Below, piece after piece: positions 2-14,650 of a stretch of 64,000 nt of DNA. The notes beneath the pieces were generated by a model. The model was given only the letters and a program-made list of their open reading frames with translations, was not told the origin of the DNA and did no database searches. The stretch is from Crateriforma conspicua (GTDB lineage: Bacteria > Planctomycetota > Planctomycetia > Pirellulales > Pirellulaceae). The stretch covers positions 2,046,001-2,110,000 of the forward strand of contig NZ_CP036319.1 in the NCBI RefSeq assembly GCF_007752935.1, read 5' to 3'. The first letter of the stretch is position 1, and each line of letters opens with the position of its first letter. The position numbers and the translations under genes are program-made.

Positions 2-631
2 TCCAGTGGTGGTCTCGGCTCTGGCGGAAGCGGCGGGGGTGGAGGCGGAGGAGCATCAGTTGGAGGGGCCGTCTCTGGGTTAGGTGGATTTGGTGCTGCA
101 GTTGGCACGGGGGGGCTCGACGCGGGCATTGAACGACTCGGCTTGGATGAACTTAAGGATAAGACAGCAATTGAAGTTGTTGCTGCTGTTGCTGAGCATC
201 TTGCCGAGCACGCCGAGGGACCACATCACGATCTCCTTGAAACGGCGTTGCGCGACGCCATTCTCGAATGTGCGGCGATCGAGGCGGACGGCTCATACGA
301 AGACCTCGATACGTCACTCCAGGGCTTCCTGAGCAGCGAAGGTATTGAAGGGCTCATTGAATCGTTCCTGTCCCACTTCGTTTTCGATCGAATTTGGAGC
401 TGGGTTGAACAACATGCGACTCAAAAGGTTGAACTGAATGGCGATACGCTCGCGATGGCCTCTGCGGTGAAAGAATCTTGCCGTGGTCATGTAGAACAGC
501 TTATGGACGACATTCGAGACGAAGGGCGATTCGGAACGACAGATTGGTTCGGACAAGAAGGAAAGCAGCTCGCTGAGGGAATAGTTGGAACGCTGGAATT
601 TCGCCTCAGCCTGCTCTCAAGTGAGGAGTGA
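2..631 (+). CDS. qatB: QatB-like protein, C-terminal part (5' end outside window)
   Basis: The reading frame is open from the first base of the window, so the start lies upstream. The first ~45 residues are a Gly/Ser-rich linker containing a run of seven glycines. An acidic, helical C-terminal domain of about 160 residues follows and ends at 631. A glycine-rich stretch followed by a helical domain, directly upstream of a QueC-like protein, is what I recall of QatB from QatABCD anti-phage systems. The assignment therefore leans on context more than on a motif. The stop lies three bases before the start of the next gene, so the two are translationally coupled. A TTG at 143 could serve as an internal start, but the continuous frame upstream argues against it. 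Confidence 0.5.
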   Translation, partial: SSGGLGSGGSGGGGGGGASVGGAVSGLGGFGAAVGTGGLDAGIERLGLDELKDKTAIEVVAAVAEHLAEHAEGPHHDLLETALRDAILECAAIEADGSYEDLDTSLQGFLSSEGIEGLIESFLSHFVFDRIWSWVEQHATQKVELNGDTLAMASAVKESCRGHVEQLMDDIRDEGRFGTTDWFGQEGKQLAEGIVGTLEFRLSLLSSEE

Positions 632-633
632 TC

Positions 634-2061
634 ATGAGAATCGTGCGCTACGTTGGCGAGGAAGCCTGCAACGACGAAAGGTACATCGCGGCACTCGACG
701 ACGCATCCGTTGGTGTCATCGATAGCCTGACTGGAGACAGAAACGTCACCGTGCAGTACAAGCTCAATGGGCAACCGATGCGTATCGAGCTTGACGCCGA
801 GACTCGTGACTTTGTGGATATTGCTATTTCCGTCTATATCGCCGACGAACTTGTGAAACGCGAGACGGCTGCAGACCGCTGGACTCGCGACTTCGACCTC
901 ATTATTCCGGTTGCCAAACCAGACAACTGGCAACGGGCATCATCATCGTTGTCGTCGACTTTGAAGTTTCTTTCTCAGGACCGATTTAGCTTTGAGTGGT
1001 TAGAGCGATCGGCCTTGCCAGACGGTCCCCGTCACCGGCAGTCGCTTCCTGAGGGATTCGACACCGTATGCCTGTTTTCAGGCGGAGTCGATTCACTACT
1101 CGGCGCACATAAGCTGCTTTCCGAAGGCCGTAAGGTATTGCTTGTGGGGCATCAGGCGGAGCCGACAACGGCAAGTGCACAAAAGGATCTGTTCCAGTTT
1201 CTAGCCGGGAAGTATGGCGACCAAGCTGCCCTCATTCAGTGTCGCGTTGCTCGCTCGGGAAATGTGACTCATCGCCATCCATTGCCAGACAAGATCGAAG
1301 ATTCGCATCGTCCACGGTCTTTTCTGTTTCTTGCCCTCGCTATCACGATCGCGAAAGCAGCTGGTATCAGTTCGGTCTTCATTCCTGAGAATGGCCTAAT
1401 TGCGTTGAATCCGCCTCTACAGCGGTCACGGGCAGGTTCCCACAGCACGCGTACGGTGCATCCGATCTACCTCCAACGCCTGCTTCGGACGCTGCACGCT
1501 TCTAACGTCTATGACGGAGAAATCCGAAATCCATTTCTATACTTAAGCAAGACAGATATGCTGCAGAATATGGATCCTTCTCTGATTGATGCCGTAAAGA
1601 GATCAGTTTCTTGTTCCCATCCCAGTCAACACAAGGACGAGAAGGTTGTGCACTGCGGCTACTGCGTCCCCTGCCTCTATAGACGTGCGGCAATGATGAA
1701 ACGTGGTTTGGATGATCCCGATTCCTACGCATTTGATATACTTGCTGGTACCCCATCTCGGATTAATGGTAAAAGCCTGACGCCATACAAGCAGCTCGAT
1801 GCCAAAGCTCTCATCCCTTTCGCGAAAAGTTTGGCATCTGCATCCGACGTTGAACTTCAGAGTCGTGTTCTCAGTCAGGGATATTTCCCATCTTCCATTG
1901 GCGAGTTGATTGGTCCAAAGGTTGTCGATTCATATCAGCCATGGGCTGATATGCTGAAGAGATGGGCGATCGATCTCGTTACTGAGTTTGAGGTACGAAC
2001 TTCGGATGAAATGAAGCGTCAGCTTGGCTTCACAACTAGTATGGTATCACAACCGGTATGA
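634..2061 (+). CDS. qatC: QueC-like protein of the Qat anti-phage system
   Basis: This is a two-part protein. An N-terminal domain of ~140 residues precedes an adenine nucleotide alpha-hydrolase (PP-loop) domain carrying the signature SGGVDS near residue 150. A cysteine cluster near residues 329, 343, 346 and 349 (C...CGYCVPC) matches the zinc site of QueC 7-cyano-7-deazaguanine synthases. At ~475 residues it is about twice the length of housekeeping QueC. The N-terminal extension is typical of QatC proteins in defence islands. The start at 634 is chosen because a GAGGAG box sits just upstream; a GTG at 628 is in frame. It overlaps the downstream ASCH gene by ATGA. QatC is needed for Qat immunity in known systems, but its chemistry there is not established. 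Confidence 0.75.
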   Translation: MRIVRYVGEEACNDERYIAALDDASVGVIDSLTGDRNVTVQYKLNGQPMRIELDAETRDFVDIAISVYIADELVKRETAADRWTRDFDLIIPVAKPDNWQRASSSLSSTLKFLSQDRFSFEWLERSALPDGPRHRQSLPEGFDTVCLFSGGVDSLLGAHKLLSEGRKVLLVGHQAEPTTASAQKDLFQFLAGKYGDQAALIQCRVARSGNVTHRHPLPDKIEDSHRPRSFLFLALAITIAKAAGISSVFIPENGLIALNPPLQRSRAGSHSTRTVHPIYLQRLLRTLHASNVYDGEIRNPFLYLSKTDMLQNMDPSLIDAVKRSVSCSHPSQHKDEKVVHCGYCVPCLYRRAAMMKRGLDDPDSYAFDILAGTPSRINGKSLTPYKQLDAKALIPFAKSLASASDVELQSRVLSQGYFPSSIGELIGPKVVDSYQPWADMLKRWAIDLVTEFEVRTSDEMKRQLGFTTSMVSQPV

Positions 2062-2536: not shown

Positions 2537-4804
2537 CTAGCTTCTTTTTCTTCGCTGTAGGTCCCGAAAGCTAATGCGCTCACGAGTTAGTAGGGTCGAA
2601 GTATCTGTGCCAAAAAGCAACGCACCTTGCATCGATGCGGCGACGGCGGAGCCGACGAGGCAGTCGAGCCAGTGGTTGTCTGGTTGCTCGGGGCGGGCTT
2701 TCCATTCGTCGACGGTTCGGCCGCGGCCCTCGGTGCGGACATAATACTCAGCGGTCACTTGCTCGGCGAACATGCGGTGTTGGTCGGGGCGGTCACCAAA
2801 GATCGAGAGGCAACCGCGGTCACCCATGGCTACGGCTAACCGCGCGTGCGTGAAGGACTTCCACCAGTTGGTGTCGTAGATCACATGGCGGATCGCTCGC
2901 TTGCCATGGATGGTTGGCACTCGCCAGTTGAGTCCAACGCGATCGCCCGGACGGCGCTTATATTCGCTGAAGGGATTGGACGACGCGCCGACGAATCGGC
3001 CGTGCGATGGCAGCAGGATCGAAGCGTGGGAGCTTTGCCGGCAGAATTGGTAAACGACGTTGGTCGAGTGGCCCCAGTTGGCGTCAATCAAACAACGTCC
3101 GATCTTCATGGCCGCTCCGTCATCACGTTGCCACTCGCGAGAAAGTAGCTCGTTTGTCAACGCCTCGAGGCCGGCGTAGATGCTGCCTTCGAGTCCGGTT
3201 CCCTCGGCGGCAGTGGCCAATGTGTGCCGAGCGTCGCGGAGTGTGAAGTAGGTTCGTTGTTGATCGGGGTAGGTTCCGTAATCGACAACGTAGCCGGTGA
3301 AATCGTCTTCCCATGCGGCAACGACGTAGAACAGTAGTTTGCCTTGAACGTCGATGAATGCGGTCAGATGGTTGCCGGAGATCGGGACTCGACGACGAGG
3401 CAGGTTGTTGATCTTTGCAGCGACTTGGTCGGAGGTTAGTTGATCGGCACCGACGGTTTCTTCCGGCAGCGGTTCATTTTGGTATTCGGCGAAAAATGCA
3501 GCTTCGTCTTGAAGCTTCAAGTTCATCGCGTGTTGGATCGCCGATAGTTCGTCGTGGTTGAAGCGTTCTTTCCATGAAACGTCCGCGCCGGCATCCATGG
3601 CTTCACGGTTCTGGCGATAGAACTTTGTGCCGGCGGCTCCACCATCGCCGGACCGCAATCCTTCCGCACGGATCTCGGCGTAGCGTTGCCAGAGCGTTTC
3701 GTTGGCTGGAAACGCGTTGACCATGCGTGTTCGTTCGCCGTTCCATTCCGGGTGAAGGTCGCGGTTAAGAATGTTGTCGGCCATGTCGCCGGGACGGATG
3801 ACCGTGCAGGGCATGATGCCTGAGATCTTCTTGCCGGGGCCTGCCAGTCCGAGCACCGCGCCGGCGAGGATGGCTTCACGGTTGGCACATTGGGATAGCG
3901 ATCGAGCGGATTCGTCGGTTTGCGGGTCGTCGAGAACCACTAACGATGGGCGGACCGTTTTGCCATCGGGGCGTTTGAACTTCATCCCTCGAATGCGACC
4001 GGTCAGTCCGGCGACCTTGATGATCGCGCCGCTGGCTTTGCTGCCGGCAAGGGTTGGCAAGACGATTTCTTTAGCCGTCCAACCGATCTGAGTTCGCTTG
4101 CCTTTGAATAGCTGGCCGTTCGCTCGGTTGGCGATGCCGTCGAGGGCTTGGATCGGAAAGCAAACTTCCGGGTAGTCGACGGCAAGCAGATCGTTGCTAT
4201 CAAGTTCGGTCTTGATCGAGTCGAGCATGTCGCAGGCGTGACCTTCGTCGCTACCGATCAAACAAACGAAGTCACGATAGCCGTTCAGCACTGCCCAGAT
4301 GCAAGCGACTTCGGCGAGTGAGCTTTTGCCGGATCCCCGGGCCATCGCGAGAGAGAATAGACCGCCGCGGATGACCGCTTCTTCGATCTTGTTGATCACC
4401 TTCAAGTGGTCCGGAGACCATGCAAGGTGAAACGTCAGACGAAAGTAGGCTTCGCAGAAAAATCGGAATGATCCGGCAGCCGCAGCCTTGCGATCTGGAT
4501 TCTCGACCGCCGGCAATTCTCCGATGTCGCGACCGGCCAGGGCAATGGCAGCGTTACGCGCTCGGGCGCTCTCTTTGAGCTTTGCGTACGGATCGACATC
4601 GGAAATCTGTTTCGGTGCATGCCGTTTTTCATGTAGCCAATCAGCGTAGGCAAGTAGATCGACATGCCGGCCGTCTCCGATGCGATTGCCCGCTTCGACT
4701 CGGTGCCGATGCAACTGCCGTTCGTTGATCACGGTGCCGAGGGGCGTCGAGTTGAGTAACCGGCAGCACTCACTTGGCTTCAGTTTGCGTGGGTCATTCA
4801 CCAC
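2537..4804 (-). CDS. terL: Phage terminase large subunit
   Basis: This 755-residue protein has a Walker A-like motif (MARGSGKSS, ~154-162) and a Walker B (SLVVLDDPQ, ~287-295). These fit the ATPase motor of a DNA-packaging terminase. The C-terminal half (from ~480, FIDVQGKLLF) looks like the RNase H-fold nuclease. It would cut and pump DNA into a capsid. The start is GTG at 4804 (GTG GTG), preceded by a near-perfect AAAGGAGG. It overlaps the upstream small ORF by 11 bases. No portal or capsid gene lies beside it, which is unusual for a complete phage. The family call rests on motif reading; subfamily is unknown. Confidence 0.8.
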   Translation of the reverse strand: MVNDPRKLKPSECCRLLNSTPLGTVINERQLHRHRVEAGNRIGDGRHVDLLAYADWLHEKRHAPKQISDVDPYAKLKESARARNAAIALAGRDIGELPAVENPDRKAAAAGSFRFFCEAYFRLTFHLAWSPDHLKVINKIEEAVIRGGLFSLAMARGSGKSSLAEVACIWAVLNGYRDFVCLIGSDEGHACDMLDSIKTELDSNDLLAVDYPEVCFPIQALDGIANRANGQLFKGKRTQIGWTAKEIVLPTLAGSKASGAIIKVAGLTGRIRGMKFKRPDGKTVRPSLVVLDDPQTDESARSLSQCANREAILAGAVLGLAGPGKKISGIMPCTVIRPGDMADNILNRDLHPEWNGERTRMVNAFPANETLWQRYAEIRAEGLRSGDGGAAGTKFYRQNREAMDAGADVSWKERFNHDELSAIQHAMNLKLQDEAAFFAEYQNEPLPEETVGADQLTSDQVAAKINNLPRRRVPISGNHLTAFIDVQGKLLFYVVAAWEDDFTGYVVDYGTYPDQQRTYFTLRDARHTLATAAEGTGLEGSIYAGLEALTNELLSREWQRDDGAAMKIGRCLIDANWGHSTNVVYQFCRQSSHASILLPSHGRFVGASSNPFSEYKRRPGDRVGLNWRVPTIHGKRAIRHVIYDTNWWKSFTHARLAVAMGDRGCLSIFGDRPDQHRMFAEQVTAEYYVRTEGRGRTVDEWKARPEQPDNHWLDCLVGSAVAASMQGALLFGTDTSTLLTRERISFRDLQRRKRS

Positions 4805-5171: not shown

Positions 5172-5215
5172 TTCGCTTGAGGTGTCTCGAAACGCATGGC
5201 TCATGTGTGTCAACG
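5172..5215 (+). promoter_or_regulatory. Bipartite repeated promoter-like element, copy A
   Basis: TTCGCTTG begins at 5172 and ATGGCTCATGTGTGT at 5196, a start-to-start spacing of 24 nt shared by all five copies. It lies 54 bases ahead of the original amidoligase start at 5250. An upstream CTGCAGATT block is also present but 11 nt further away than in copies B-D. Confidence 0.65.
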
Positions 5216-5249
5216 CAAAACGAATTCCACGCTTTTCGGGGACACAAAC

Positions 5250-5280
5250 ATGCACGCCAACGACATCGCCTTCGGTATCG
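5250..5280 (+). pseudogene. Severed 5' end of the amidoligase gene
   Basis: ATG at 5250 is preceded by GGGGACACAAAC, the same leader pattern seen before the other cassette genes. The ten codons read MHANDIAFGI and then run into the RIT left end. If the RIT element is removed at the shared GTATCG, the frame continues into the gene at 8763 to give FGIEIETHMPG, the expected amidoligase N-terminus (FGxEIE). Confidence 0.8.
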
Positions 5281-5309
5281 ATTATGCGGAGTTCGGGATT
5301 ATGCAGAGT
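5277..5309. repeat. RIT left inverted repeat
   Basis: This 33-bp arm is the exact reverse complement of 8708-8740. It contains two TTATGC cores. An inverted partial copy (ACTCCGCATAATCCC) follows at 5375-5389, giving a palindromic sub-structure at the left end. Confidence 0.85.
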
Positions 5310-5401
5310 CTGAAGTCTGTCACGCTGTTTGGCATCATGAATAGCTACCTTTCTTGATCGGCGACTCGCCCTGCACTCCGCATAATCCCATGGTCGCGAA
5401 T

Positions 5402-6403
5402 CTACAACGATTTCAGAAATTTCAGCAGTTCATCGTCCGGCTGAAATCGCATCGAGCTGTTCTTGACCGGCTGGAGAGCGGCGAGCGTCGCCTCTTTAAG
5501 TTCAAGGTTCGCTGTAATGTAGAGGTGCGTTGTTTCGATACTTTCGTGACCGAGCCACATTGCGATCAGCGTAATGTCGACGCCGGATTGAAGAAGATGC
5601 ATGGCTGTCGTGTGACGTAACGTATGCGGCGAAATCCGCTTTTGCACGAGTGATGGACGGGCTGAAGTTGCTCGAATAATCGCCTGCTTCAGTCGCTTTT
5701 CCACCCCCGAGCGTGTCATCATCGCGCCTCGAGCGTTGGGAAACAGCGGTTGCGATGGTCGCAGCCCAGTTCCCTTGATCCACTGGCCAAGCGTCTTTGA
5801 TGTTGATTTCCAAAGAGGTAACAGCCGCTCTTTTCGACCTTTGCCTTGAAACCGAAACGTTCCACTTGGTTTCAACGTCACATCCGACACTATGGCACTC
5901 ACGACTTCGGAGACCCGTGCCCCCGTGTTGTACATCATTGCAAGCAGAGCTCGATCACGCTTTCCGCTCCAGGTGTTTGCGTCCGGCGCATCCAAGATAG
6001 CTTCCATTTCATCGCGGTCCAGAAAGCCGAGCACTTGCCGCGATGTCCGTTTTGATGGAATGGCGAGGATGCTCTCCATATCACTTGAGATAAGTGGTTC
6101 CTTCCAACGAAGGTACCTCGCGAAGGCACGAATTGCCGACAAGCGTTGGTTGCGAGTTGAGTCGCTGCATTTCTTAGTCCGCTGCAGGTGGCTGAGAAAC
6201 GCCACAACATTCTCCGCGGAGAAATCGCTTGCGGTGATCGCTCGCGGCGCAAGGTTTTTCTTATGTTGAAGGTAAGTCAAGAAGGCGCACAGAGCATCGC
6301 GGTATGAATGTACCGTGTTGAGACTACAGCCACGGTCCTGCACTAAATGCTCACCGAGAAAATGCTGCAGATGACGTGGGATATCGGGTCCAGATTTTTT
6401 CAT
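5402..6403 (-). CDS. ritC: Tyrosine recombinase, third of the RIT trio
   Basis: This 333-residue protein has an N-terminal SAM-like DNA-binding domain (LNTVHSYRDALCAFL) and a C-terminal catalytic domain. Catalytic features visible are Arg in GARVSEV, HTLRH, the GHES box and a C-terminal Tyr in THLYI. It is the last gene of the trio in transcription order, and its ATG overlaps the stop of ritB (ATGA). It ends ~90 bp from the left repeat. It should act with the other two recombinases in moving the element; their division of labour is not known to me. Confidence 0.85.
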   Translation of the reverse strand: MKKSGPDIPRHLQHFLGEHLVQDRGCSLNTVHSYRDALCAFLTYLQHKKNLAPRAITASDFSAENVVAFLSHLQRTKKCSDSTRNQRLSAIRAFARYLRWKEPLISSDMESILAIPSKRTSRQVLGFLDRDEMEAILDAPDANTWSGKRDRALLAMMYNTGARVSEVVSAIVSDVTLKPSGTFRFQGKGRKERLLPLWKSTSKTLGQWIKGTGLRPSQPLFPNARGAMMTRSGVEKRLKQAIIRATSARPSLVQKRISPHTLRHTTAMHLLQSGVDITLIAMWLGHESIETTHLYITANLELKEATLAALQPVKNSSMRFQPDDELLKFLKSL

Positions 6404-7371
6404 GACTCGCCTCCCAGTCTAGCGCGTTTGATCGACGATTCGCTCCGTTTAGAGCACTGCTGCATCAAGATCGGTACGGAACTGAGATACCAGTACGTTG
6501 AGGTCAGCGTTGCGTGCCCCAGATAGACCGACAACTCATGGACTGCGTCATCAATGTTGCAATCTTCTTGGTATGCTCTGAGAAGATGATTGCACGCGAA
6601 GGTGTGTCGCAGATCGTGCAAGCGAGGTTTACGTCCGTTTTCAGGATTCAGATTCGCTCGCTTCAGCAGTTGATCGAACGCGCATCGCATTGTTGTGTAA
6701 GGCAGGTGCCCACCGCGAGGTGATCGGATGAATGGGTCAGCTTGATCCGCATTGCCGAACTGTCGATCCCTCGCGATGCGATAGTTCAACAAGCTGATTC
6801 GCGCCGAGTCGGACACCGGAACGAGACGCATCGGCAGGTTTTTGCTGTGGCAAACCCTCAAGACCCCCTCATCGAGATCCACGTGCTCATTCTTCAGTGC
6901 CAACACTTCGCCGATTCGCATTCCGGTGCACGCCAAAAGCCCGATGACGGTGGCGTTTCTCAGACCCGTCATTGGATCACGTTTGAAAGACGGAGCGTAC
7001 GTCAGGCACGTGCCCAACAACAGCGATATCTCTGCCGGGGCAAAGATGTATGGTGGGATACGATCATAACTTCTACCCAGCAGACCGCGCATCGGGATTT
7101 CGGTACGATCGTCAAAGACTGCGAGGTAGCGGGCCAGCGACCGGACGACATCCAATCGTTTCGCATGGTAAATTCGCTTCTTTCCTTTGCAATTGGTCGC
7201 CCACTGAAGCGCGACTTCGACCGTAAGTGGCCTCCCCGCAGCGTGATTGTCGGCGTACTGACCGAATGACCTCAACAAGTACGCCTCTGAGTGAATTCGA
7301 TACCCCAGCGAGCGTCGGTAAGCAATGTATCGTTCGACGAGTGAAGACATCGCGAGTGTTTTCTTGCTCAT
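6400..7371 (-). CDS. ritB: Tyrosine recombinase, second of the RIT trio
   Basis: From ATG 7371 (MSKKTLAMSS), which overlaps the ritA stop as ATGA, this gives a protein of 323 residues; the frame is open six codons further upstream. Catalytic signatures are GMRIGEV, LHDLRHTF and YLGHATLTSTYWYL with the nucleophilic Tyr. It is middle gene of the co-transcribed trio and overlaps both neighbours, so the three are probably made together. Confidence 0.85.
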   Translation of the reverse strand: MSKKTLAMSSLVERYIAYRRSLGYRIHSEAYLLRSFGQYADNHAAGRPLTVEVALQWATNCKGKKRIYHAKRLDVVRSLARYLAVFDDRTEIPMRGLLGRSYDRIPPYIFAPAEISLLLGTCLTYAPSFKRDPMTGLRNATVIGLLACTGMRIGEVLALKNEHVDLDEGVLRVCHSKNLPMRLVPVSDSARISLLNYRIARDRQFGNADQADPFIRSPRGGHLPYTTMRCAFDQLLKRANLNPENGRKPRLHDLRHTFACNHLLRAYQEDCNIDDAVHELSVYLGHATLTSTYWYLSSVPILMQQCSKRSESSIKRARLGGES

Positions 7372-8606
7372 ACTGTCACCTCCGGCCACTCACCTGCTAC
7401 ACGACGAAGCGCTGGTAAATCGACCTGTGCATACAGGGTTGTCGTTTGCAAGGAATGGTGCCCAAGCACATCTGCGATTGACTTCAAGCTTTGTCCCTCA
7501 TGCTTCAAACATGTCGCCATCGTGTGACGGAGAATGTGGGTGCCACGATTCGGTCCGGTAAACCCAGCTCGTTTCCATGCAACTGAAACCATCCGCTTCA
7601 GAGATGCTGCCGATGCAGGCTGACCAATTGGATGCGTGTGACGCAAGAACACATTGCGGTGCGGAGTTGCGGGGCGACCCTTTCGCAGATAATCGGCGAT
7701 GGCAACACCTGTTCGATCCGGCAATGGTAAGTCATAAGGTCTGCCGCGCTTGTGGTTTGAAATCCGAATCGTCCCATGGGTCCAATCAATGTCATCCAAT
7801 CGAAGCACAGCTACATCGCCGACCCGTACTCCTAAGTCCATCATGCAAAGAATCGCGGCATAATTTCGCCTACCAATCTTGGTGGATCGGTCAACCGCTT
7901 GTAGCAGCTTTGCAGCATCGCCATCACCCAGCCATTTCGGCGACAACGCCATTCGATTGCTGCGGACGACCGGTAAACACTGTTGTAAGTTGCTGGTGCA
8001 GATCCCATTCATGCGGAGAAATCGAAAGTAGGCTCGCAATGCCGCACAGCAATTCCGCTGCTGACTTCGATGCGGCAAGCCTGTCACATATTTGTGAACA
8101 CTTTCGGCTGACAGTCGCTTCATCGAAATTTGGCAATTGCCAAACATGCTTCTAAAGAACAACAACAATCCTCGTTGGTGATGTTCGACCGTCCCGCGCG
8201 CTAAACCTCGCTCAGTTCGGAGGAACTCAGAGAAACGTTCAACCTCCTTCTCAGCAAAGCTGGATGAAAGTCTTGGCGGATGCTTCTTCCGGACCAACGA
8301 GAGAACGTTGTTGACAGCCGAAACCGCACGCTTTCTCCGCGGACTGTTTGCGTCCGGAGAGACTGAATCGAAAAACTGCACGACATGGTCGTCAGAGATT
8401 GAATCGATCTTAACTCTCTGACATTTTAGCCAGTCGCCAAATGCGGCGGAGTAACCCAATGATGCTCGTGCGTACTTGAAGAAGTAACCTTGGGCATGGA
8501 AGTACACGGCAGCCTCGTTGAGGAACGCCGACAGGTGATTGCTTTCCATCGCGGCAAGCCGCTTGGGATCGCGAAAATAGAAGCTCAACATAATTACCAA
8601 CTCCAC
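7368..8606 (-). CDS. ritA: Tyrosine recombinase, first of the RIT trio
   Basis: This 412-residue protein has an N-terminal core-binding domain and a catalytic domain with Arg in LGVRVGDVAVL, HILRHTMAT, GHHSLQTT and a final Tyr in LYAQVD. It is the first gene after the right end of the element, with ~100 bp of leader before the inverted repeat. It is longer than its partners because of its N-terminal region. The ATG at 8606 was kept; an internal MLSF start about five residues later is also possible. Confidence 0.85.
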   Translation of the reverse strand: MELVIMLSFYFRDPKRLAAMESNHLSAFLNEAAVYFHAQGYFFKYARASLGYSAAFGDWLKCQRVKIDSISDDHVVQFFDSVSPDANSPRRKRAVSAVNNVLSLVRKKHPPRLSSSFAEKEVERFSEFLRTERGLARGTVEHHQRGLLLFFRSMFGNCQISMKRLSAESVHKYVTGLPHRSQQRNCCAALRAYFRFLRMNGICTSNLQQCLPVVRSNRMALSPKWLGDGDAAKLLQAVDRSTKIGRRNYAAILCMMDLGVRVGDVAVLRLDDIDWTHGTIRISNHKRGRPYDLPLPDRTGVAIADYLRKGRPATPHRNVFLRHTHPIGQPASAASLKRMVSVAWKRAGFTGPNRGTHILRHTMATCLKHEGQSLKSIADVLGHHSLQTTTLYAQVDLPALRRVAGEWPEVTV

Positions 8607-8707
8607 AAATCAGGGTGCGAGCAGATCAATGTGACCCGCGGGTTGGCAGATTGTTATGCGGACTCACAAACTTGAAAAATCAACGTTTTTCGGTGCATAA
8701 CCGACCA

Positions 8708-8740
8708 ACTCTGCATAATCCCGAACTCCGCATAATCGAT
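8708..8740. repeat. RIT right inverted repeat with adjoining palindrome
   Basis: This is the exact reverse complement of the left 33-bp arm. It is followed at 8742-8761 by a perfect 20-bp palindrome (CTATGCGGAG and its complement) that is not matched at the left end, so the two ends are asymmetric. Confidence 0.85.
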
Positions 8741-9593
8741 GCTATGCGGAGCTCCGCATAGTATCGAAATCGAAACCCACATGCCCGGAAACGACCGCAC
8801 GCCGATCGGCGGCTACCACAACGGCCTTCCGGTTTCCTGGCTTCCCGCGGGTTGGAAGGCGGAACGCGACGGCAGCATCCGCACGCCGGCCGGCCGCAAA
8901 CCTTGCGAGTTTGTTTCACCGGTCCTTCGCGGACGCGAGGGTTTGCAAAACGTCGAGACCGCGGTCGACGCGATCAGAGAACGCGGGGCGCGGGTCAACG
9001 AATCTTGCGGGCTGCACATCACCATTTCTTGGAACGGCGACGCGGCGGCCTTGGCCCGACTGATTTCCTTGATCGCCAACCATGAAAAGGCCATCTACGC
9101 ATCGACCGGAACACGACGCCGCGAACGAAACCAATGGGCGAAGCAAATCAAAACCTACGGCAACAAGGACGCTGCGAAGACACGCTGCGAACGAGACCGC
9201 TACCACCTTTTGAACCTGACGCACCTGGCTCGCGGACGGCAAAGGATTGAGATCCGGGCCTTCGCCGGAACGCTCAACAAAACCAAATTGATCGGCTACA
9301 TCCAAATGATCCTGGGCTTGGCCGAACTCGCCTTGAACCAAAAACGATGCGCGGGCTGGGACTACGCCAAGAAGCCCGGAACGAAATCTTGCTGGGACCG
9401 ACCGGACGCCGGCCACGGGGAAACGGAACTGAACCGGCTCTTCTACCGGCTGGGTTGGACAAAGGGTTGGTACAAGGGCGAGCTTCGCAATAAACGATTC
9501 GGCGAACTGACCGCCGGCGAAACCGGATGCGACTTTCGCCCGGTCAAAAAGAAGCTTCTCGACTTGGCCCGCAAATATGACCAGGCGGTTTGA
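8739..9593 (+). CDS. Amidoligase-family protein (5' end replaced by RIT sequence)
   Basis: The body (IEIETHMPGND..., CGLHITISW, then a basic region and IEIRAFAGTLN near residue 190) fits the amidoligase (COOH-NH2 ligase) family of the glutamine-synthetase fold. These enzymes join amine and carboxyl groups on peptides. The family's opening FGxEIE motif is split: FGI is left at 5271-5279 and the rest begins here. The current ATG at 8739 lies inside the RIT repeat and gives eight foreign residues before IEIE. ATG 8784 is another possible start. Loss of the first strand and of the original promoter probably weakens or kills the gene. Confidence 0.7.
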   Translation: MLCGAPHSIEIETHMPGNDRTPIGGYHNGLPVSWLPAGWKAERDGSIRTPAGRKPCEFVSPVLRGREGLQNVETAVDAIRERGARVNESCGLHITISWNGDAAALARLISLIANHEKAIYASTGTRRRERNQWAKQIKTYGNKDAAKTRCERDRYHLLNLTHLARGRQRIEIRAFAGTLNKTKLIGYIQMILGLAELALNQKRCAGWDYAKKPGTKSCWDRPDAGHGETELNRLFYRLGWTKGWYKGELRNKRFGELTAGETGCDFRPVKKKLLDLARKYDQAV

Positions 9594-9619
9594 CGGAACG
9601 ACTTCTCCTTTTCGATCGC

Positions 9620-9650
9620 ACGCCGTAGTGAACGCTGCGGCGTTTCTTTG
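9620..9650 (+). terminator. Hairpin terminator after the amidoligase gene
   Basis: Stem 9620-9628 pairs with 9635-9643 (ACGCCGTAG with CTGCGGCGT, one G-U), followed by a T-rich tail. It lies 27 bases after the amidoligase stop. Confidence 0.65.
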
Positions 9651-9800
9651 TTTTGTGGCCGCGACACTCGCCGTTTGTGGGCGATGTCGGGTAGGTCAAA
9701 CGTAGGTGGCCACCAATGCCGCTGACGCGACAGGGGCGGTTTGTGGGCGACGTCGGCGACGCGCTGAAACATGGAAAAACCCTGCGAATTACTGGCTGGA

Positions 9801-9845
9801 TTCGCTTGCTGTGTTTGGAAACGCATGGCTCATGTGTGTCATCGG
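9801..9845 (+). promoter_or_regulatory. Bipartite repeated promoter-like element, copy B
   Basis: TTCGCTTG is at 9801 and ATGGCTCATGTGTGT at 9825, with the same 24-nt phasing as the other copies. An upstream CTGCGAATT block at 9782 sits 19 nt before TTCGCTTG, as in copies C and D. The next start codon is 58 bases after the ATGGCTC box. Confidence 0.65.
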
Positions 9846-9882
9846 AAGACGGTTTTTCATTCACCCAAACGGAGAAACAAAC

Positions 9883-10158
9883 ATGACCCTCGGCGAACTG
9901 ATCGGCTTGCTTGAAGAGTACCGCGACGAGCACGGCGAAGACTGCGAAGTGCGGTTGATGACGCAACAGAACTGGCCCTTTGAAAACCGCATCGCCGGCG
10001 TAACGAGCGGCGCGGAAATGAACGAAGCGGAACACGATGATCCGCACGAGTTCGCGGATGCCCAAGACGTCGCCGAAGACGCGATGGTCTACATCGTCGA
10101 AGGTGGACAGATCTGCTACGGCAGCAAGCGGGCATGGGAAACCTGCCGCGATTGCTAA
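9883..10158 (+). CDS. Small acidic cassette protein, unknown function
   Basis: This encodes 91 residues from ATG 9883, chosen because the CGGAGAAACAAAC leader fits the other cassette genes. The frame is open upstream to 9706 but that part crosses the promoter-like repeat. The sequence (LGELIGLLEEYRDEHGEDC, then a DAMVYIVEGGQICYG C-terminus) is acidic and looks like a compact alpha/beta protein. I do not recognise a domain. It is a one-gene transcription unit between promoter copy B and a strong hairpin at 10173. Confidence 0.65.
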   Translation: MTLGELIGLLEEYRDEHGEDCEVRLMTQQNWPFENRIAGVTSGAEMNEAEHDDPHEFADAQDVAEDAMVYIVEGGQICYGSKRAWETCRDC

Positions 10159-10172
10159 ACGCGAATCAACAC

Positions 10173-10208
10173 GCCGGCGGCGCTGGATCACGCCGCCGGC
10201 CTTTCTTT
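10173..10208 (+). terminator. Hairpin terminator
   Basis: A perfect 10-bp GC stem (10173-10182 with 10191-10200) is followed by CTTTCTTTT. It ends the unit encoding the 91-residue protein. Confidence 0.7.
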
Positions 10209-10230
10209 TCACCAGAGATGAGCATAAACC

Positions 10231-10443
10231 ATGAATCAAAAGCAGAACCTTGAAGAAGCCTATGTCGCCGCCCACGCTCGGGCGTTGCAAGCGGCGGAAG
10301 CCGTCCGACAGATGATTGAGGACCTACCGGCTCCGGACAGCGAAACGCGGATCGGTTGGGATCACGTCGGAACGCTTCGCCACTACGCAGCGCGGCTTGA
10401 GGAATTGCTTGAATCCAATGAACCGGAAGACAACGGCAGCTAA
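10231..10443 (+). CDS. Small helical cassette protein, unknown function
   Basis: This 70-residue, mostly helical, acidic protein (AYVAAHARALQAAEAVRQ, then HYAARLEELLES) contains LPAPDSETRIGWDHVG. It resembles the 77-residue protein at 12420 in size and in the pattern helix, DLPxPDS/RPDSKDL, W, helix, so the two may be distant paralogs. It follows a terminator and precedes another. No copy of the repeated promoter lies directly upstream, so it may depend on read-through. Confidence 0.65.
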   Translation: MNQKQNLEEAYVAAHARALQAAEAVRQMIEDLPAPDSETRIGWDHVGTLRHYAARLEELLESNEPEDNGS

Positions 10444-10469
10444 TTCGTAAAGCGAACTCTTTCGCCCAT

Positions 10470-10507
10470 ACGCCGCGACGTTCGCAACCTGTCGCGGCGT
10501 TTTCTTG
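10470..10507 (+). terminator. Hairpin terminator
   Basis: Perfect 10-bp stem ACGCCGCGAC / GTCGCGGCGT (10470-10479 with 10491-10500) followed by TTTTCTTG. It is closely similar to the hairpin at 9620. Confidence 0.75.
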
Positions 10508-10604
10508 TTTGCGGGTTGTTTGCCGTATGCCCATGGAACGGCGTTTCGGCCGAACGTCGCCGGCCAACCCAAAGCTGAAAAAAGACTGCAGATTCTCTCC
10601 GGAC

Positions 10605-10648
10605 TTCGCTTGCTGCGTTTGAAAACGCATGGCTCATGTGTGTCACCG
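10605..10648 (+). promoter_or_regulatory. Bipartite repeated promoter-like element, copy C
   Basis: TTCGCTTG at 10605 and ATGGCTCATGTGTGT at 10629 keep the 24-nt phasing. CTGCAGATT at 10586 is 19 nt upstream. The gene start at 10687 is 58 bases after the second box. Confidence 0.65.
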
Positions 10649-10686
10649 AAACGGTTTTCACGCTTCCCACCTACGGAGACAGACAC

Positions 10687-10905
10687 ATGGCCAACACAAC
10701 TGCCCGCCCAACTTCCGCAGACCTTCTGTACCTGCACACGCAAACGCTCGAGTTGATTGAAGAGTTGCACGCTGCGGTCAAAGACTTGCCGCTTGCCGCA
10801 GCGGCCAACAGCGCCAACTTCGAGCGAGTCTTTGGCGAACTCGATGACTTGCACGACACCATCGACGGGCTGGCAGCGAAACTTCGGCGCAACACGGCCG
10901 AGTGA
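10687..10905 (+). CDS. Small helical cassette protein, unknown function
   Basis: This 72-residue protein starts at ATG 10687 after CGGAGACAGACAC. It is all-helical and probably forms a coiled coil (LLYLHTQTLELIEELHAAVKD, then FGELDDLHDTIDGLAAKL). The heptad-like leucine spacing suggests self-association. No known domain is recognised. It is a single-gene unit under promoter copy C. Confidence 0.65.
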   Translation: MANTTARPTSADLLYLHTQTLELIEELHAAVKDLPLAAAANSANFERVFGELDDLHDTIDGLAAKLRRNTAE

Positions 10906-10976
10906 CATCGCCTGAGCAGCGGCATTGTTCGCAGTCTTTGAAAAACCTTTCAAAAGACTGCGAATTGCTGCCGGAC

Positions 10977-11020
10977 TTCGCTTGATGTGCTGCGAAACGA
11001 ATGGCTCATGTGTGTTAACG
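10977..11020 (+). promoter_or_regulatory. Bipartite repeated promoter-like element, copy D
   Basis: TTCGCTTG at 10977 and ATGGCTCATGTGTGT at 11001 keep the 24-nt phasing. CTGCGAATT at 10958 is 19 nt upstream. The gene start is 67 bases after the second box. Confidence 0.65.
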
Positions 11021-11067
11021 CCGACAGGGCGAACCAAGAACCACGACCTTCTACCGGAGACAAAACC

Positions 11068-11310
11068 ATGGCCAAAGAAAGCAAGACCGCCGACCTTCGC
11101 ACCGCGATGCAACAACTCGACCCGGCGACCTTCCAAGAGATTCGCGAAAGCTACTACCGCATCGCCGACACCCTGAAGCCGCTGGCCGACGCTTTGGAAA
11201 AGGCTGACGCGGACCAAGGCGGCCACGCCGGCCCGCTCCTCGACGAGCATTTTCTCTTCCTGCAAATGTACGACCTGCTTCGCAAGAGCAACCTTGGCGG
11301 GGTGGTTTGA
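11068..11310 (+). CDS. Small cassette protein, unknown function
   Basis: This 80-residue protein starts at ATG 11068 behind CCGGAGACAAAACC. It contains LRTAMQQLDPATFQEIRESYYRI-type amphipathic helices and a C-terminal HFLFLQMYDLLRKS helix. I see no catalytic motif. A GC-rich inverted repeat without a T run (about 11323-11360) follows and may be a weak terminator before the next gene. Confidence 0.65.
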   Translation: MAKESKTADLRTAMQQLDPATFQEIRESYYRIADTLKPLADALEKADADQGGHAGPLLDEHFLFLQMYDLLRKSNLGGVV

Positions 11311-11427
11311 ACCGAAAGCCGAAACGCCGGCCCCATTCCTCAAACGAATCGGGTCGGCGTCGTCGCGGGCGGTTCCTGCGGCCTGACGATGGCAGCCAAC
11401 CATGAACACAAATTTGGAGACGCAAAC

Positions 11428-11913
11428 ATGAAAAAGGCAGACGTAAAGATCGGTAGCGAGTACTACGCGACGGTGACGAACAAGAAAGTGGTTGTGCGCA
11501 TCGACGCGGAGAACGCCTCGGGCGGTTGGGACGCGACCAACCTTTCGACAAACAAGAGAGTCCGCATCAAGACGGCTGGTCGGTTGCAAGGACCGGCACG
11601 GACGGCCCAGTCGACTGCGGAGCCCGCCACGCGAGCAAAGAAGCGAGTCACCAAGAAGAAATCCGAAGCCAGCACCGGCGGCGAGAAAAAGCTTTCCTGC
11701 GTGAAAGCGGCCTTGCAGGTTTTGGAATCCGCCGGCGAACCCATGAACACGCAGGAAATGATCGCCGCGATGGTTGACCAGAATCTCTGGGAAAGCCCCG
11801 GCGGAAAGACTCCGCATGCGACGTTGTACTCGGCGATCCTTCGTGACTTGGCGAAAGGCGACGGAAGCCGGTTTGTAAAGACGGAACGCGGCCGATTCAC
11901 GGTTCGGGCATAG
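11428..11913 (+). CDS. HARE-HTH winged-helix protein
   Basis: This 161-residue protein has three parts. An N-terminal ~45-residue beta domain (VKIGSEYYATVTNKKVVVRI) is followed by a basic linker (RAKKRVTKKKSEA). The C-terminal winged helix (SCVKAALQVLESAGEPMNTQ ... HATLYSAILRDLAKG) matches the HARE-HTH domain found in restriction enzymes and RNA polymerase delta. It probably binds DNA, perhaps modified DNA as proposed for HARE-HTH. The start at 11428 follows TTTGGAGACGCAAAC; an upstream in-frame ATG at 11389 is less likely. It is followed 12 bases later by another small gene. Confidence 0.75.
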   Translation: MKKADVKIGSEYYATVTNKKVVVRIDAENASGGWDATNLSTNKRVRIKTAGRLQGPARTAQSTAEPATRAKKRVTKKKSEASTGGEKKLSCVKAALQVLESAGEPMNTQEMIAAMVDQNLWESPGGKTPHATLYSAILRDLAKGDGSRFVKTERGRFTVRA

Positions 11914-11925
11914 GAGGCTGGCAAG

Positions 11926-12156
11926 ATGTTTATCGGAGACGTTCGACAAATCGAGGACCTTGCGGAAGAGGAAACGGCAACGCCGGAACCCGACATGGGA
12001 TACGAACTGCGGACCGCCATTGGCGACCGCTTTGAACGTGGCACGGTGGAACACCTGGTTCGACGCAGCGACATGATCATCGCCCGAACAACCGCCGGCG
12101 AAGAGTTCGCGGTTGTCGGCCGGAACGCGCACGTCTTGGTCCCTCTCTCCTTCTAA
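11926..12156 (+). CDS. Small protein co-transcribed with the HARE-HTH gene
   Basis: This 76-residue protein follows AGGAGG at a good distance (CATAGGAGGCTGGCAAGATG). The second half (DRFERGTVEHLVRRSDMIIA ... EFAVVGRNAHVLVPLSF) reads as a small beta-rich domain. No family is recognised. The 12-base gap from the HARE-HTH gene and the terminator at 12196 define a two-gene unit. Confidence 0.65.
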   Translation: MFIGDVRQIEDLAEEETATPEPDMGYELRTAIGDRFERGTVEHLVRRSDMIIARTTAGEEFAVVGRNAHVLVPLSF

Positions 12157-12195
12157 CTTCGACACTTTCTTCCCCCGGCGAACAGTTCGCCACAC

Positions 12196-12228
12196 ACGCC
12201 CGACGTTGGCCACGGTCGGGCGTTTTGT
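12196..12228 (+). terminator. Hairpin terminator
   Basis: Perfect 9-bp stem ACGCCCGAC / GTCGGGCGT (12196-12204 with 12215-12223) followed by TTTTG, ending the HARE-HTH unit. Confidence 0.7.
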
Positions 12229-12338
12229 CGTTGGTCGGCTACCTCGCCGCACTACTTCACAAGGCCGCACGCGGCAAAGACAGCCGCGATTTCTACCTAC
12301 CGAAAAACATGGCGAATCTTTCCGCATGCTTGGCAAAG

Positions 12339-12382
12339 TTCGCTTGCTGTGTTCGCGGACTCATGGCTCATGTGTGTTAACG
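12339..12382 (+). promoter_or_regulatory. Bipartite repeated promoter-like element, copy E
   Basis: TTCGCTTG at 12339 and ATGGCTCATGTGTGT at 12363 keep the 24-nt phasing; the spacer is the most diverged. The start of the next gene is 57 bases after the second box. Confidence 0.65.
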
Positions 12383-12419
12383 CGAACGCCATTTCATTTC
12401 ACGAACACGAAGAACCCAA

Positions 12420-12653
12420 ATGAGCAAAGTTCAAAACCTGAATCCTCGGCCGATCGAGCCGGCCCCGGCCTATGAGAACGGCCACCAAATCGCTCGCGAC
12501 CTATTGCGGCACATCGAGCTGCAACTCGACCGCATGATGCGACCGGATAGCAAAGACCTTCGATGGCAACACGTACGAGCGGTCAACCTCATCAACGCTC
12601 AGCTATCGGAGGTCGCCACGCTACTCGACGAAACCAACGGAGTTCGAAACTGA
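12420..12653 (+). CDS. Small helical cassette protein, unknown function
   Basis: This 77-residue protein is helical throughout, with HQIARDLLRHIELQLDRMM and VRAVNLINAQLSEVATLL as the main helices. It is similar in layout to the 70-residue protein at 10231. It is first of a three-gene run (12420, 12653, 12902) under promoter copy E, and its stop overlaps the next ATG (TGATG). Function unknown. Confidence 0.65.
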   Translation: MSKVQNLNPRPIEPAPAYENGHQIARDLLRHIELQLDRMMRPDSKDLRWQHVRAVNLINAQLSEVATLLDETNGVRN

Positions 12654-12898
12654 TGAAAACCAAATGCGACTTCAAGGCGGGCGATCGCGTAAGTCTGATC
12701 GAGATGGGCGATGATCCCGATCCGATCCCAGCCGGCACGACAGGAACGGTTGCCGGCGTTTATCCGCAACACGATTGGTTGCAACTCGATGTCGACTGGG
12801 ACAACGGCCGGTCGCTGATGCTTTCCATTCCGCCGGATCGCGTCGAACGGCTTTCCGGCGGCAATTCCAAATCCAATTCTTCAAGCCAAGGAAACTGA
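12653..12898 (+). CDS. DUF4314-like protein
   Basis: This 81-residue protein has FKAGDRVSLIEMGDDPDPIP followed by GTTGTVAGV and a W-containing strand. The pattern matches DUF4314, a small SH3-like beta barrel common in phages and mobile elements; no function is known. The last ~15 residues are a Ser/Asn-rich tail. The start overlaps the previous stop. Confidence 0.75.
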   Translation: MKTKCDFKAGDRVSLIEMGDDPDPIPAGTTGTVAGVYPQHDWLQLDVDWDNGRSLMLSIPPDRVERLSGGNSKSNSSSQGN

Positions 12899-12901
12899 AC
12901 C

Positions 12902-13219
12902 ATGTCCACACGAGCAATAATTGCCACGCAGACTTACGATCGAGGAATCCTCGCCACGTACTTGCACTTTGACGGCTACCCGGAACACGTCCTGCCGATT
13001 CTGGTCGATGGGTACCTGGATCCGGACGAAGCCATCGAGTTGATTGAAGGCGGCGAACTGCGATCGCTTCAACCACGCCCTGCTGAGCCTGAGTATTTCG
13101 CGACCAGTCGGCAAACCGAGGTGTTGAAAGACGAATCGGAATTGGATCGGCTTGCCCGGTACTTAAATGCAGAGCACATTTACTTCTACGATGACATGTG
13201 GCGACACCGAAAGGCTTGA
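12902..13219 (+). CDS. Conserved phage-type hypothetical protein
   Basis: This 105-residue protein begins MSTRAIIATQTYDRG and has LHFDGYPEHVLPIL. The combination MSTRxxI plus a xxHxDGYPEH box is frequent in small phage proteins that have no assigned role. It starts four bases after the DUF4314 stop, behind AAGGAAACTGAACC. It is last gene of the plus-strand cassette run and converges with the methyltransferase gene. Confidence 0.7.
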   Translation: MSTRAIIATQTYDRGILATYLHFDGYPEHVLPILVDGYLDPDEAIELIEGGELRSLQPRPAEPEYFATSRQTEVLKDESELDRLARYLNAEHIYFYDDMWRHRKA

Positions 13220-13228
13220 TCGCTCCAC

Positions 13229-14539
13229 TCATCGCATGTTCTCCTCGCGAGCGCCGACGCGGATCGGTGACTCGCCGGTCCGCTCGAGCACCGCGGCTTT
13301 GCCGGTGAACCGCTGGTAGCGATCGACGATCACGTCGCAGTACGGCGGATCGAGTTCCATCAAGAAAGCCTTGCGTCCGGTCTGCTCGGCGGCGATCAAC
13401 GTCGAACCGCTGCCGCCAAAGAGATCGAGGACGTTGTCGCCGCGTCGCGATGAATACTGCATCGCCATCACCGCGAGTTCGGCCGGTTTGCCGGTGAGGT
13501 GCTCCAACTGCTGCGGCGGAATCTTCTTGACGTGCCACAGGTCCGTCGCATTGTTCGGTCCGAAGAATTTGTGGCCGGCCCCTTCTTTCCAGCCATAGAA
13601 CGCCCATTCGTGCGCGCCCATGAAATCCTTGCGAGTCATCACGGGATGCATCTTGTCCCAAATGATGGCCTGCGAGAAATACAACCCGGCTTTTGCCAGC
13701 ACGGGCGGGTAGTTTGCGATGTTGGAGAAGCCTCCCCAGATGTAGAAGCTTCGGCCGGGTTCGAGAACGCGAGCAATGTTGCCGAACCAGGCTTCGAGCA
13801 AGCGATTGAATTCCTCGTCCGAAACAAAATCGTTCGCGAGCGGCCGATCTTTGGCTCGCATCTTCTTCGGACCGTCTTTCGATTTCCCTTTGCCGGCCTC
13901 AAAGGAGCTGTTGCCGGCGGCGATCGCGTTCTTGCTACGGGGTTCAACCTTCACGTTGTATGGCGGATCCGTATTGCACAGTTGAATCTTCGCACCGTTC
14001 AATAGCCGATCGAGATCTTCCACGCTGGTCGAGTCGCCACATAGCAATCGGTGGTCGCCGAGGATCCAAAGGTCGCCGGGCTGGGTGACCGGATCGTCAG
14101 GTGGCTCCGGGACATCGTCGGGATCGGTCAGTCCCGGTTCAACACCTGGATCGAGGAGCTTGGCCAGCTCGTCGCTGTTGAAGCCGAGCAATTCGCAATC
14201 GAATCCGACGTGCTGTAGCTCGCCAATTTCGAGCGGCAACAGATCGTAATCCCACTCGGCGTTCTCACCGGTCCTATTATCGGCGATGCGATAGGCCTTC
14301 ACCGCCTCCGGCTCAAGGTCCGTTGCAACATGGACCGGAACCTCGGCGAGGTTCAACTGCTTCGCGGCTTTCCAACGTGTATGGCCGACGATGATAACGC
14401 CATCGGGATCAACCACGATCGGCTGCCGGAAGCCGAACTCGTTGATAGACTGGACGACGGGGGCAACCGCGTCGTCGTTGATTCGCGGATTCTTTTCGTA
14501 AGGCTTGATCCGATCAAGCGACCACATTTCGACCTGCAT
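13229..14539 (-). CDS. ParB-like domain fused to DNA methyltransferase
   Basis: From ATG 14539 the protein has 436 residues; GAAGGG lies upstream and a TTG at 14557 is an alternative. Residues ~1-90 form a ParB/sulfiredoxin-like domain (IKPYEKNPR, then VGHTRWKAAK). The rest is an N6-adenine or N4-cytosine methyltransferase, with DPPYN near residue 195 ahead of DLFGGSGSTLIAA near 385, an order typical of the beta class. ParB-methyltransferase fusions are common in phages and integrative elements, where they mark element DNA against host restriction or modulate expression. No partner restriction gene is nearby, so it is an orphan. Confidence 0.88.
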   Translation of the reverse strand: MQVEMWSLDRIKPYEKNPRINDDAVAPVVQSINEFGFRQPIVVDPDGVIIVGHTRWKAAKQLNLAEVPVHVATDLEPEAVKAYRIADNRTGENAEWDYDLLPLEIGELQHVGFDCELLGFNSDELAKLLDPGVEPGLTDPDDVPEPPDDPVTQPGDLWILGDHRLLCGDSTSVEDLDRLLNGAKIQLCNTDPPYNVKVEPRSKNAIAAGNSSFEAGKGKSKDGPKKMRAKDRPLANDFVSDEEFNRLLEAWFGNIARVLEPGRSFYIWGGFSNIANYPPVLAKAGLYFSQAIIWDKMHPVMTRKDFMGAHEWAFYGWKEGAGHKFFGPNNATDLWHVKKIPPQQLEHLTGKPAELAVMAMQYSSRRGDNVLDLFGGSGSTLIAAEQTGRKAFLMELDPPYCDVIVDRYQRFTGKAAVLERTGESPIRVGAREENMR

Positions 14540-14650
14540 GTGCAAAAGCCCTTCCAAGGCGAGGAGAGAAACGGAAGGGTTTGGTCAGTGGTTGGTTAGA
14601 TGTTCAAATAGCTGGGAAATTGGTTGGGTGTGCTTCTCGACGCTGCAGGT

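Follow-up and report, generated by a model that had tools for sequence, protein, structure and literature searches.

We analysed a 64,000-nucleotide stretch of the Crateriforma conspicua genome (contig NZ_CP036319.1, positions 2,046,001 to 2,110,000; hereafter the window), in which an array of small gene cassettes lies between a terminase gene and a ParB/DNA-methylase gene of a prophage-type element. The bipartite motif TTCGCTTG-N16-ATGGCTCATGTGTGT occurs in five exact copies on the plus strand of the window, starting at 5172, 9801, 10605, 10977, and 12339, and in none of 100 dinucleotide-preserving shuffles. A first-pass annotation of the same DNA had described five phased, two-part copies lying 54-67 bases ahead of gene starts. 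All five are exact at those positions, and the distance is correct when counted from ATGGCTCAT; from the end of TGTGT to the next ATG it is 39, 43, 43, 52, and 42 nt for copies 1-5. The array features are as follows.

5172-5210, plus strand: candidate array promoter, copy 1, ahead of the amidoligase gene (ATG at 5250)
9801-9839, plus strand: candidate array promoter, copy 2 (ATG at 9883)
10605-10643, plus strand: candidate array promoter, copy 3 (ATG at 10687)
10977-11015, plus strand: candidate array promoter, copy 4 (ATG at 11068), heading the unit c4 - hammerhead - HARE-HTH
12339-12377, plus strand: candidate array promoter, copy 5 (ATG at 12420)
9763-9800, plus strand: A-tract region, example 5' of copy 2 (family average: three tracts, about one helical turn apart)
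2537-4804, minus strand: terminase large subunit, left border of the array
13229-14557, minus strand: ParB-like / N6-N4 DNA methylase, right border of the array

Distribution and geometry of the motif

Within the host genome (7.18 Mb), 16 copies with up to three mismatches fall into three clusters at 1.72, 2.05, and 2.16 Mb, each inside a prophage-type element. This agrees with the earlier placement of the array in a mobile element, and the distribution named at that time as speaking against a dedicated regulon, with copies all over the host genome and no tie to gene starts, is not what we found. A looser core gave one further site, with one mismatch, compared to two matches for the backward control pattern. 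A 15-mer of the motif turns up in 110 stretches from IMG/VR, in some of them 5-11 times; some of the 110 lack CTTG and were counted as chance (at least L008, L009, L013, L020, and L026). The longer form occurs in 36 stretches of named genomes, whose titles are all planctomycetes save one Bacteroidia; Rhodopirellula rubra and Rubripirellula obstinata are among the species with motif-bearing records. A sequence-only model built from 72 diverse copies matched 68 of the 241 genomes of the host's family and 9 of the 392 genomes sampled across the phylum, 4 of them outside the family.

Family statistics were compiled from 216 records, where 503 model hits yielded 312 unique copies after removal of 153 duplicates, 27 hits whose sequence context was too short, and 11 that lacked the two boxes; the copies are related, and the figures describe the family rather than independent tests. 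An open reading frame (ORF) of at least 40 aa lies within 125 nt of 309 of the 312 copies (random sites: 56%), and in 214 of these 309 it starts 40-49 nt after the motif. GGAG or GAGG precedes the ATG at 71% of copies vs. 7% of random sites. The motif, present in 1 to 11 copies per motif-bearing stretch, thus holds the fixed position and orientation ahead of gene starts that would be expected of a promoter. The distance from CTTG to GGCT is 22 nt in 294 of the 312 copies, a figure that is no free test because selection permitted only 21-23. A free test was made in 1.83 Mb of element stretches, where CTTG-N-GCTC..TGTG was found 25 times with a spacing of 19 nt, none of the ten other spacings from 14 to 24 gave more than one match, and the reversed control gave 0.

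Upstream of the 312 copies, AA peaks at -38/-37, -28, and -18/-17 from CTTG, corresponding to three A-tracts about 10.5 bp apart. A CTGC(A/G).ATT patch noted in the first-pass annotation is real, but forms one piece of this wider pattern. UP elements bind alpha C-terminal domains. The tracts appear to be arranged as in UP-element promoters, one helical turn apart upstream of the motif: if CTTGA is taken as the -35 box, they would lie near -73, -63, and -53, where UP elements bind those domains, and the conserved Y-A after TGTGTGT would lie at -1/+1. The motif's two boxes are alike (GCTTGATGTG and GCTC-ATGTG) and are possibly direct repeats. In addition, CATG recurs in the motif and A-tract region, beside the prophage DNA methylase gene, and may mark methylation targets.

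The motif was also examined as RNA and as coding sequence. Consensus folding gave 0 conserved pairs in the 95-nt repeat, the one plausible hairpin in the motif (GGTT..AACC) showed no covariation and paired in 57.5% of cells vs. 57.2% in shuffles, and no Rfam family matched; an RNA element or riboswitch was rejected on the absence of consensus pairs and the shuffle-level pairing. A leader peptide, MAHVC, was likewise rejected, with 7 synonymous vs. 178 non-synonymous or stop codon differences (a rough ratio, as the count takes in frame-shifted copies), and one-base insertions among the copies also argue against peptide coding. With RNA structure and peptide coding unsupported, the motif probably acts as DNA. 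The earlier reading, "DNA or RNA" and not protein, therefore stands for DNA and for the exclusion of protein; its RNA half does not.

The linked sigma factor gene and the integration operon

To the right of the methylase gene follow, in turn, primase-polymerase, helicase, RusA, DUF669, Sak4, a sigma factor, and a serine recombinase with DUF2924. The features relevant here are:

21977-22588, minus strand: ECF-type (extracytoplasmic function) sigma factor; the open frame extends to 22792
26638-28694, minus strand: serine recombinase + DUF2924, integration module
28738-28773, minus strand: second-class core site CTTG-N19-GCTG.CTGTCC, before DUF2924-serine recombinase (ATG at 28694)
29070-29105, minus strand: second-class core site, before a 99-aa ORF (ATG at 29028)

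By profile matches and predicted fold, the protein encoded at 21977-22588 is a divergent ECF-type sigma factor, with a predicted role in directing RNA polymerase. It matches a PHROG sigma family (7.7e-14) and TIGR02937 (52.6 bits, above the curated cut-off of 42.9), while its Pfam region 2 and region 4 matches are below their cut-offs. Both regions are present as folds in the AlphaFold model (predicted local distance difference test, pLDDT, 82; predicted template modelling score, pTM, 0.43, so that domain placement is uncertain). A Foldseek search of the PDB with this model returned mostly sigma factors, the best being an ECF sigma (E 6.6e-05, TM 0.26), and region 4 of the model aligned to sigma-E region 4 on -35 DNA (2h27) with Z 8.6 over 67 residues, middling Z values being common for small helical domains.

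At E <= 0.001, three relatives of the sigma factor were found in the host genome, each close to a different motif cluster; a profile search also returned two weak sigma-like frames at 2.144-2.147 Mb (1e-08 and 5e-07) with no motif alongside. Identity to the window's protein ranges from 17 to 65% over 23 relatives. In E1 and E3, sister elements of the window's prophage, the sigma match is far weaker (2e-08 and 1e-26) than that of helicase and Sak4 (1e-155 or better), which suggests that the sigma factor evolves fast. Among 50,697 named phage records, the only matches at E <= 0.01 are four from Wolbachia phage WO (HQ906663, KY695239, KX522565, and HQ906662).

Motif and sigma gene are linked. In the 241 family genomes the motif was found in 68, the sigma gene in 76, and both in 51 (Fisher p 4.6e-19, without correction for kinship). 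Forty-six stretches were fetched, most picked for their motif, and 45 hold it; 38 of these 45 also carry the sigma gene, which in 37 of the 38 lies on the opposite strand, 4.7-13.7 kb downstream. The link extends to 20-kb stretches without detected replication genes (G092a, G092c, G093, G095, G063a, and others). The sigma factor is encoded in 26 of the 32 motif-bearing IMG/VR records, in one of them as two weak pieces; in three of the six without it (G268, G285, and G294), the array lies, as judged by eye, <=6 kb from the contig end on the side where the sigma gene would be expected. Across the phylum, 6 of the 9 motif-positive genomes have the sigma gene (E <= 1e-15), including all 4 outside the family. 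A stretch from another family that was found by its sigma gene (G044) has a variant motif about 8 kb from it.

We also searched 13 further, more distant sigma stretches with the core CTTG-N17-TGGCT-N2-4-TGTG, which was relaxed to this form only after inspecting the sequences. It occurs four times, in G640, G512, and G671 (two), vs. 0 when the pattern was reversed and 1 in 20 shuffled sets. In G640, G512, and at one G671 site it lies between the terminase and HARE-HTH genes, as in the window; G329 has a one-mismatch core at that position, G319 has no clear one, and no exact core was found in the other eight of the 13. Allowing one mismatch throughout gave 11 matches, whereas the reversed control gave 5 and three shuffles gave 3, 4, and 9, so only exact-core matches were counted.

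A second class of site lies at the integration operon. CTTG-N19-GCT[CG], with phasing identical to that of the array motif, is found 5' of the DUF2924-serine recombinase genes in 23 of 29 elements, typically as CTTGAG..N..GCTCTCTGTGACC or CTTGAGG..N..GCTCAGTGTCCAC. This core was first spotted by eye in the very sequences then counted; its controls gave 0 (reversed) and 2 in total (14 other spacings). Some array copies with one extra base (GGCTCCATGTG and GGCTTCATGTG) show the second-class spacing. Looking for the motif at other genes of the element had been suggested in the first-pass annotation, and the integration operon supplies such a case. A general core covering both classes, CTTG[AC]-N18-GCTN-N1-3-TGT, matches seven sites in the window, namely the five array copies and the two sites before the integration module (100 shuffles: mean 0.14, maximum 2), and all seven lie 74-87 nt ahead of an ATG. 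One two-box core at two separate places, with one phasing and one start-codon distance, is the strongest argument for promoter function.

Array genes, core unit and prophage

The remaining array features are:

11068-11310, plus strand: small cassette gene c4
11317-11401, plus strand: type II hammerhead ribozyme, after c4 and ahead of the HARE-HTH gene (43.6 bits, gathering 37)
11428-11913, plus strand: HARE-HTH protein gene, in all 45 motif-bearing stretches compared
8739-9593, plus strand: amidoligase gene, 3' part (the 5' part begins at 5250)
5281-8745, plus strand: insertion that interrupts the first cassette gene; its three tyrosine recombinase genes are on the minus strand
9620-9643, plus strand: terminator-like hairpin, -16.8 kcal/mol; 3/200 shuffles fold as well; passed the consensus scan
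10173-10200, plus strand: terminator-like hairpin, -24.0 kcal/mol; 0/200 shuffles; passed the consensus scan
10470-10500, plus strand: terminator-like hairpin, -19.4 kcal/mol; 2/200 shuffles; loop too long for the scan
12196-12223, plus strand: terminator-like hairpin, -20.7 kcal/mol; 11/200 shuffles; loop too long for the scan

HARE-HTH is the one gene that accompanies the motif in every motif-bearing stretch, and it is better conserved than the sigma factor when the window is compared with the sister elements. Its domain is also found in the RNA polymerase delta subunit. A hammerhead precedes the gene in the window, in 7/7 related stretches, and in 2/7 more distant ones (10/15), and in 9 of the 14 related stretches it lies directly before or within the start of the HARE-HTH frame. 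In the window and the seven closer stretches the ribozyme follows c4, directly except in G201; c4 was not found in the two distant stretches with a hammerhead. Hammerheads that flank genes of prophages have been described before (PMC3088659).

According to the ORF list, unit 2 holds two genes and units 4 and 5 hold three each, so not every array unit has exactly one gene. Four hairpins close units or genes; the one at 12196 folds only weakly better than its shuffles, and a consensus terminator scan (13 sites vs. 11.8 expected) is near chance level and thus weak evidence. Near-identical closing hairpins had been reported earlier; their terminator-like folding holds, but their sequences differ. 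PADLOC gave no match for nine cassette proteins. Array gene order is kept in E1, E3, and the related stretch G188.

The first unit (5172) is split by a 3.46-kb insertion in the amidoligase gene, from about 5281 to 8745, whose three adjacent tyrosine recombinase genes we take to be of the recombinase-in-trio type. All three prophage elements of this genome (the window's and the sisters at 1.73 and 2.16 Mb) carry the insertion with 100% identity and at one and the same position within the amidoligase gene; in two of them it is inverted with respect to the array. The start of this gene is intact in 15 other stretches where it was matched.

The host genome holds three such elements, which share genes. 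Beside its terminase gene, E1 encodes portal, head protease, major tail, and tape-measure proteins, which identifies the element family as tailed prophages; in the window's own element a terminase was found, and structural genes were not looked for. A QueC-like protein (window 628-2061; 3.1e-08) lies directly left of the terminase gene, where E1 has portal and head genes, and the window's prophage may be rearranged on that side. Named phages included no near relative of window positions 1-25000.

Candidate explanations and known systems

We consider it probable, at roughly 0.64, that the motif is the promoter of a prophage-specific sigma regulon covering the cassette array and the integration module. 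The computations establish the motif and its geometry, its association with gene starts and with these elements, the second class of site, and the sigma gene with its linkage, family, and fold; promoter activity, the pairing of sigma factor and motif, the start point, and the timing are what we infer. The prophage's ECF-type sigma factor, with RNA polymerase, would read CTTGA as the -35 element. The -10 element would be GCTC, which begins 23 nt past the C of CTTG, and TGTG(TGT) behind it would be the discriminator; transcription would start near the conserved YA right after TGTGTGT. The UP-like A-tracts would strengthen the array copies, each of which would precede a small transcription unit, several of them ending in a hairpin, and a weaker form of the motif would head the integration operon. 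With array and integration operon under one sigma factor, switching it on would activate accessory genes and integration/excision together. The first-pass interpretation, small genes transcribed independently from one dedicated recognition sequence in a mobile element, is supported by these results as a prediction about transcription; the sigma gene, the second site class, and the tailed-prophage type of the element were not part of it.

Several observations weigh against this regulon. HARE-HTH is tied to the motif more tightly than the sigma factor is (45/45 vs. 38/45), and the sigma factor diverges fast and the motif hardly, its region 4 helix varying while the CTTG box stays constant. The sigma gene was not found in 7 of the 45 motif-bearing stretches; a split over two contigs explains G181, and loss of everything right of the methylase explains G188, while G063d, G063e, G064b, G085b, and G245 have the motif without the sigma gene and without such an explanation (weak sigma-like frames lie near G064b and G063e, at 7e-07 and 2e-04). 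In G238b, which has a differing layout, the sigma gene is oriented the other way. Some family genomes, a number of them fragmentary, have only one partner: 17 of the 68 motif-positive genomes lack the sigma gene, and 25 of the 76 sigma-positive genomes lack the array motif at threshold. Motif and sigma gene are far apart in G655, and the four genomes outside the family show co-occurrence of a full-strength motif with the sigma gene, not linkage.

The distant stretches add further difficulties. A strict integration-type site is present in only two of the seven that have DUF2924 (G319 and G036c). G319 has the sigma gene but no clear motif at its HARE cassette; G036c has the sigma gene and no array motif, keeps the integration-type site, and by our own reading enters a host-type region with repeated sulfatase-like genes. 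G194, G186, G446, G582, G347, G420, and G064a have neither an exact-core array nor a strict integration-type site, or lack the DUF2924 gene; a form with one base more or less was seen, by eye only, in G446, G329, and G064a. Finally, the likeness of the two boxes could mean that one DNA-binding protein is bound twice.

The constant company of HARE-HTH, its better conservation between the window and the sister elements, and the direct-repeat look of the two boxes (a consensus judged by eye) would all suit a prophage promoter recognised by a sigma factor of the host or switched on by some other DNA-binding protein of the prophage, such as an autoregulating HARE-HTH. We regard this as unlikely, though the strongest of the alternatives: the integration operon has this core at identical spacing in 23 of 29 elements, which fits a sigma factor better, and the one looser match in the host genome away from the three clusters has one mismatch and is at control level. 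A host housekeeping promoter is unsupported, as the array strand has no sigma-70 type box pair (TTGACA/TATAAT, 16-18 nt; one promoter-like site in the region, on the other strand, vs. 3.3 expected), and sigma-54 sites (GG-N10-GC), compared by eye, do not fit.

Asymmetric repeated sites in a single orientation before genes, of a kind known from some phages, would also suit operators (repressor or stoperator-like) with the real promoter elsewhere. That role is improbable here, since an ATG 39-52 nt after the motif in the window leaves little space for a separate promoter, and the A-tracts upstream weigh against it as well. Least probable of all, and by some distance from the regulon, is that the motif serves as a recombination site for cassettes or as an RNA element in the 5' untranslated region; the range of 1 to 11 copies per stretch would suit such a role, but the motif has no consensus fold, its hairpin pairs at shuffle level, array gene order is kept in E1, E3, and G188, and the box spacing is fixed, with an identical core at the integration operon. 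Compared with integron attC sites, the 95-nt repeat is without a consensus fold; an integron integrase was not searched for.

Extending the sigma regulon to the whole phylum, we tentatively envisage, at somewhat less than even odds for the picture as a whole, a self-contained mobile transcription programme that joins a fast-evolving prophage sigma factor to a nearly frozen promoter. Promoter copies would have grown from 1-2 to 11, building arrays of independently transcribed accessory genes, with a core unit of promoter, often c4 and hammerhead, and HARE-HTH at the heart and integration on the same switch. If true, this would be the first described transcription programme for planctomycete phages, and the sigma-promoter pair could be used as an orthogonal expression tool; it would also offer a clear means of recognising these elements. 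It also poses two puzzles: how a sigma factor can drift to about 20% identity when the promoter that it presumably reads does not change, and what keeps a HARE-HTH protein, in many cases behind a self-cleaving ribozyme, in their company.

ECF promoters consist of two boxes at -35 and -10 with fixed spacing, read by a sigma factor with regions 2 and 4. The present motif is like them in having two boxes at presumed -35 and -10 positions, fixed spacing, and a putative sigma factor with both regions, and differs from the usual ECF consensus in its CTTGA / GCTC-TGTG boxes and in a conserved stretch extending to the presumed start. Phage sigma factors include T4 gp55, SPO1 gp28, and similar proteins; like these, the prophage protein would be a phage sigma factor redirecting RNA polymerase, but it is of ECF type, comes from planctomycete prophages, and appears to serve accessory cassettes and integration rather than a long late operon. 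Its closest relative among the named phage records is the Wolbachia phage WO gene (27% identity over 86% of the query), from an unrelated host.

According to two published accounts, both components are of known kinds, namely phage-encoded sigma factors that redirect RNA polymerase, among which sporulation-type factors were tested (PMC9429907), and repeated start-linked sequences (PMC3203893). Their combination, or any planctomycete prophage transcription programme, did not appear in the open-access literature searched, coverage of which was incomplete. In cluster K mycobacteriophages, start-associated sequences (SAS) and extended SAS (ESAS) are conserved repeats before many phage genes, of unproven function; DNA binding or transcription initiation has been suggested for the ESAS (PMC3203893). 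The array motif is similar in being one repeated sequence ahead of many genes, mostly in a single orientation. It does not belong to the SAS/ESAS class as described there: the SAS spans the ribosome-binding site and the ESAS is a 17-bp imperfect inverted repeat, whereas the planctomycete motif has two parts, lacks symmetry, and lies 39-52 nt ahead of the ATG, 5' of the ribosome-binding site. Unlike SAS/ESAS in that account, it also comes with a sigma gene linked to it and with a counterpart at the integration operon.

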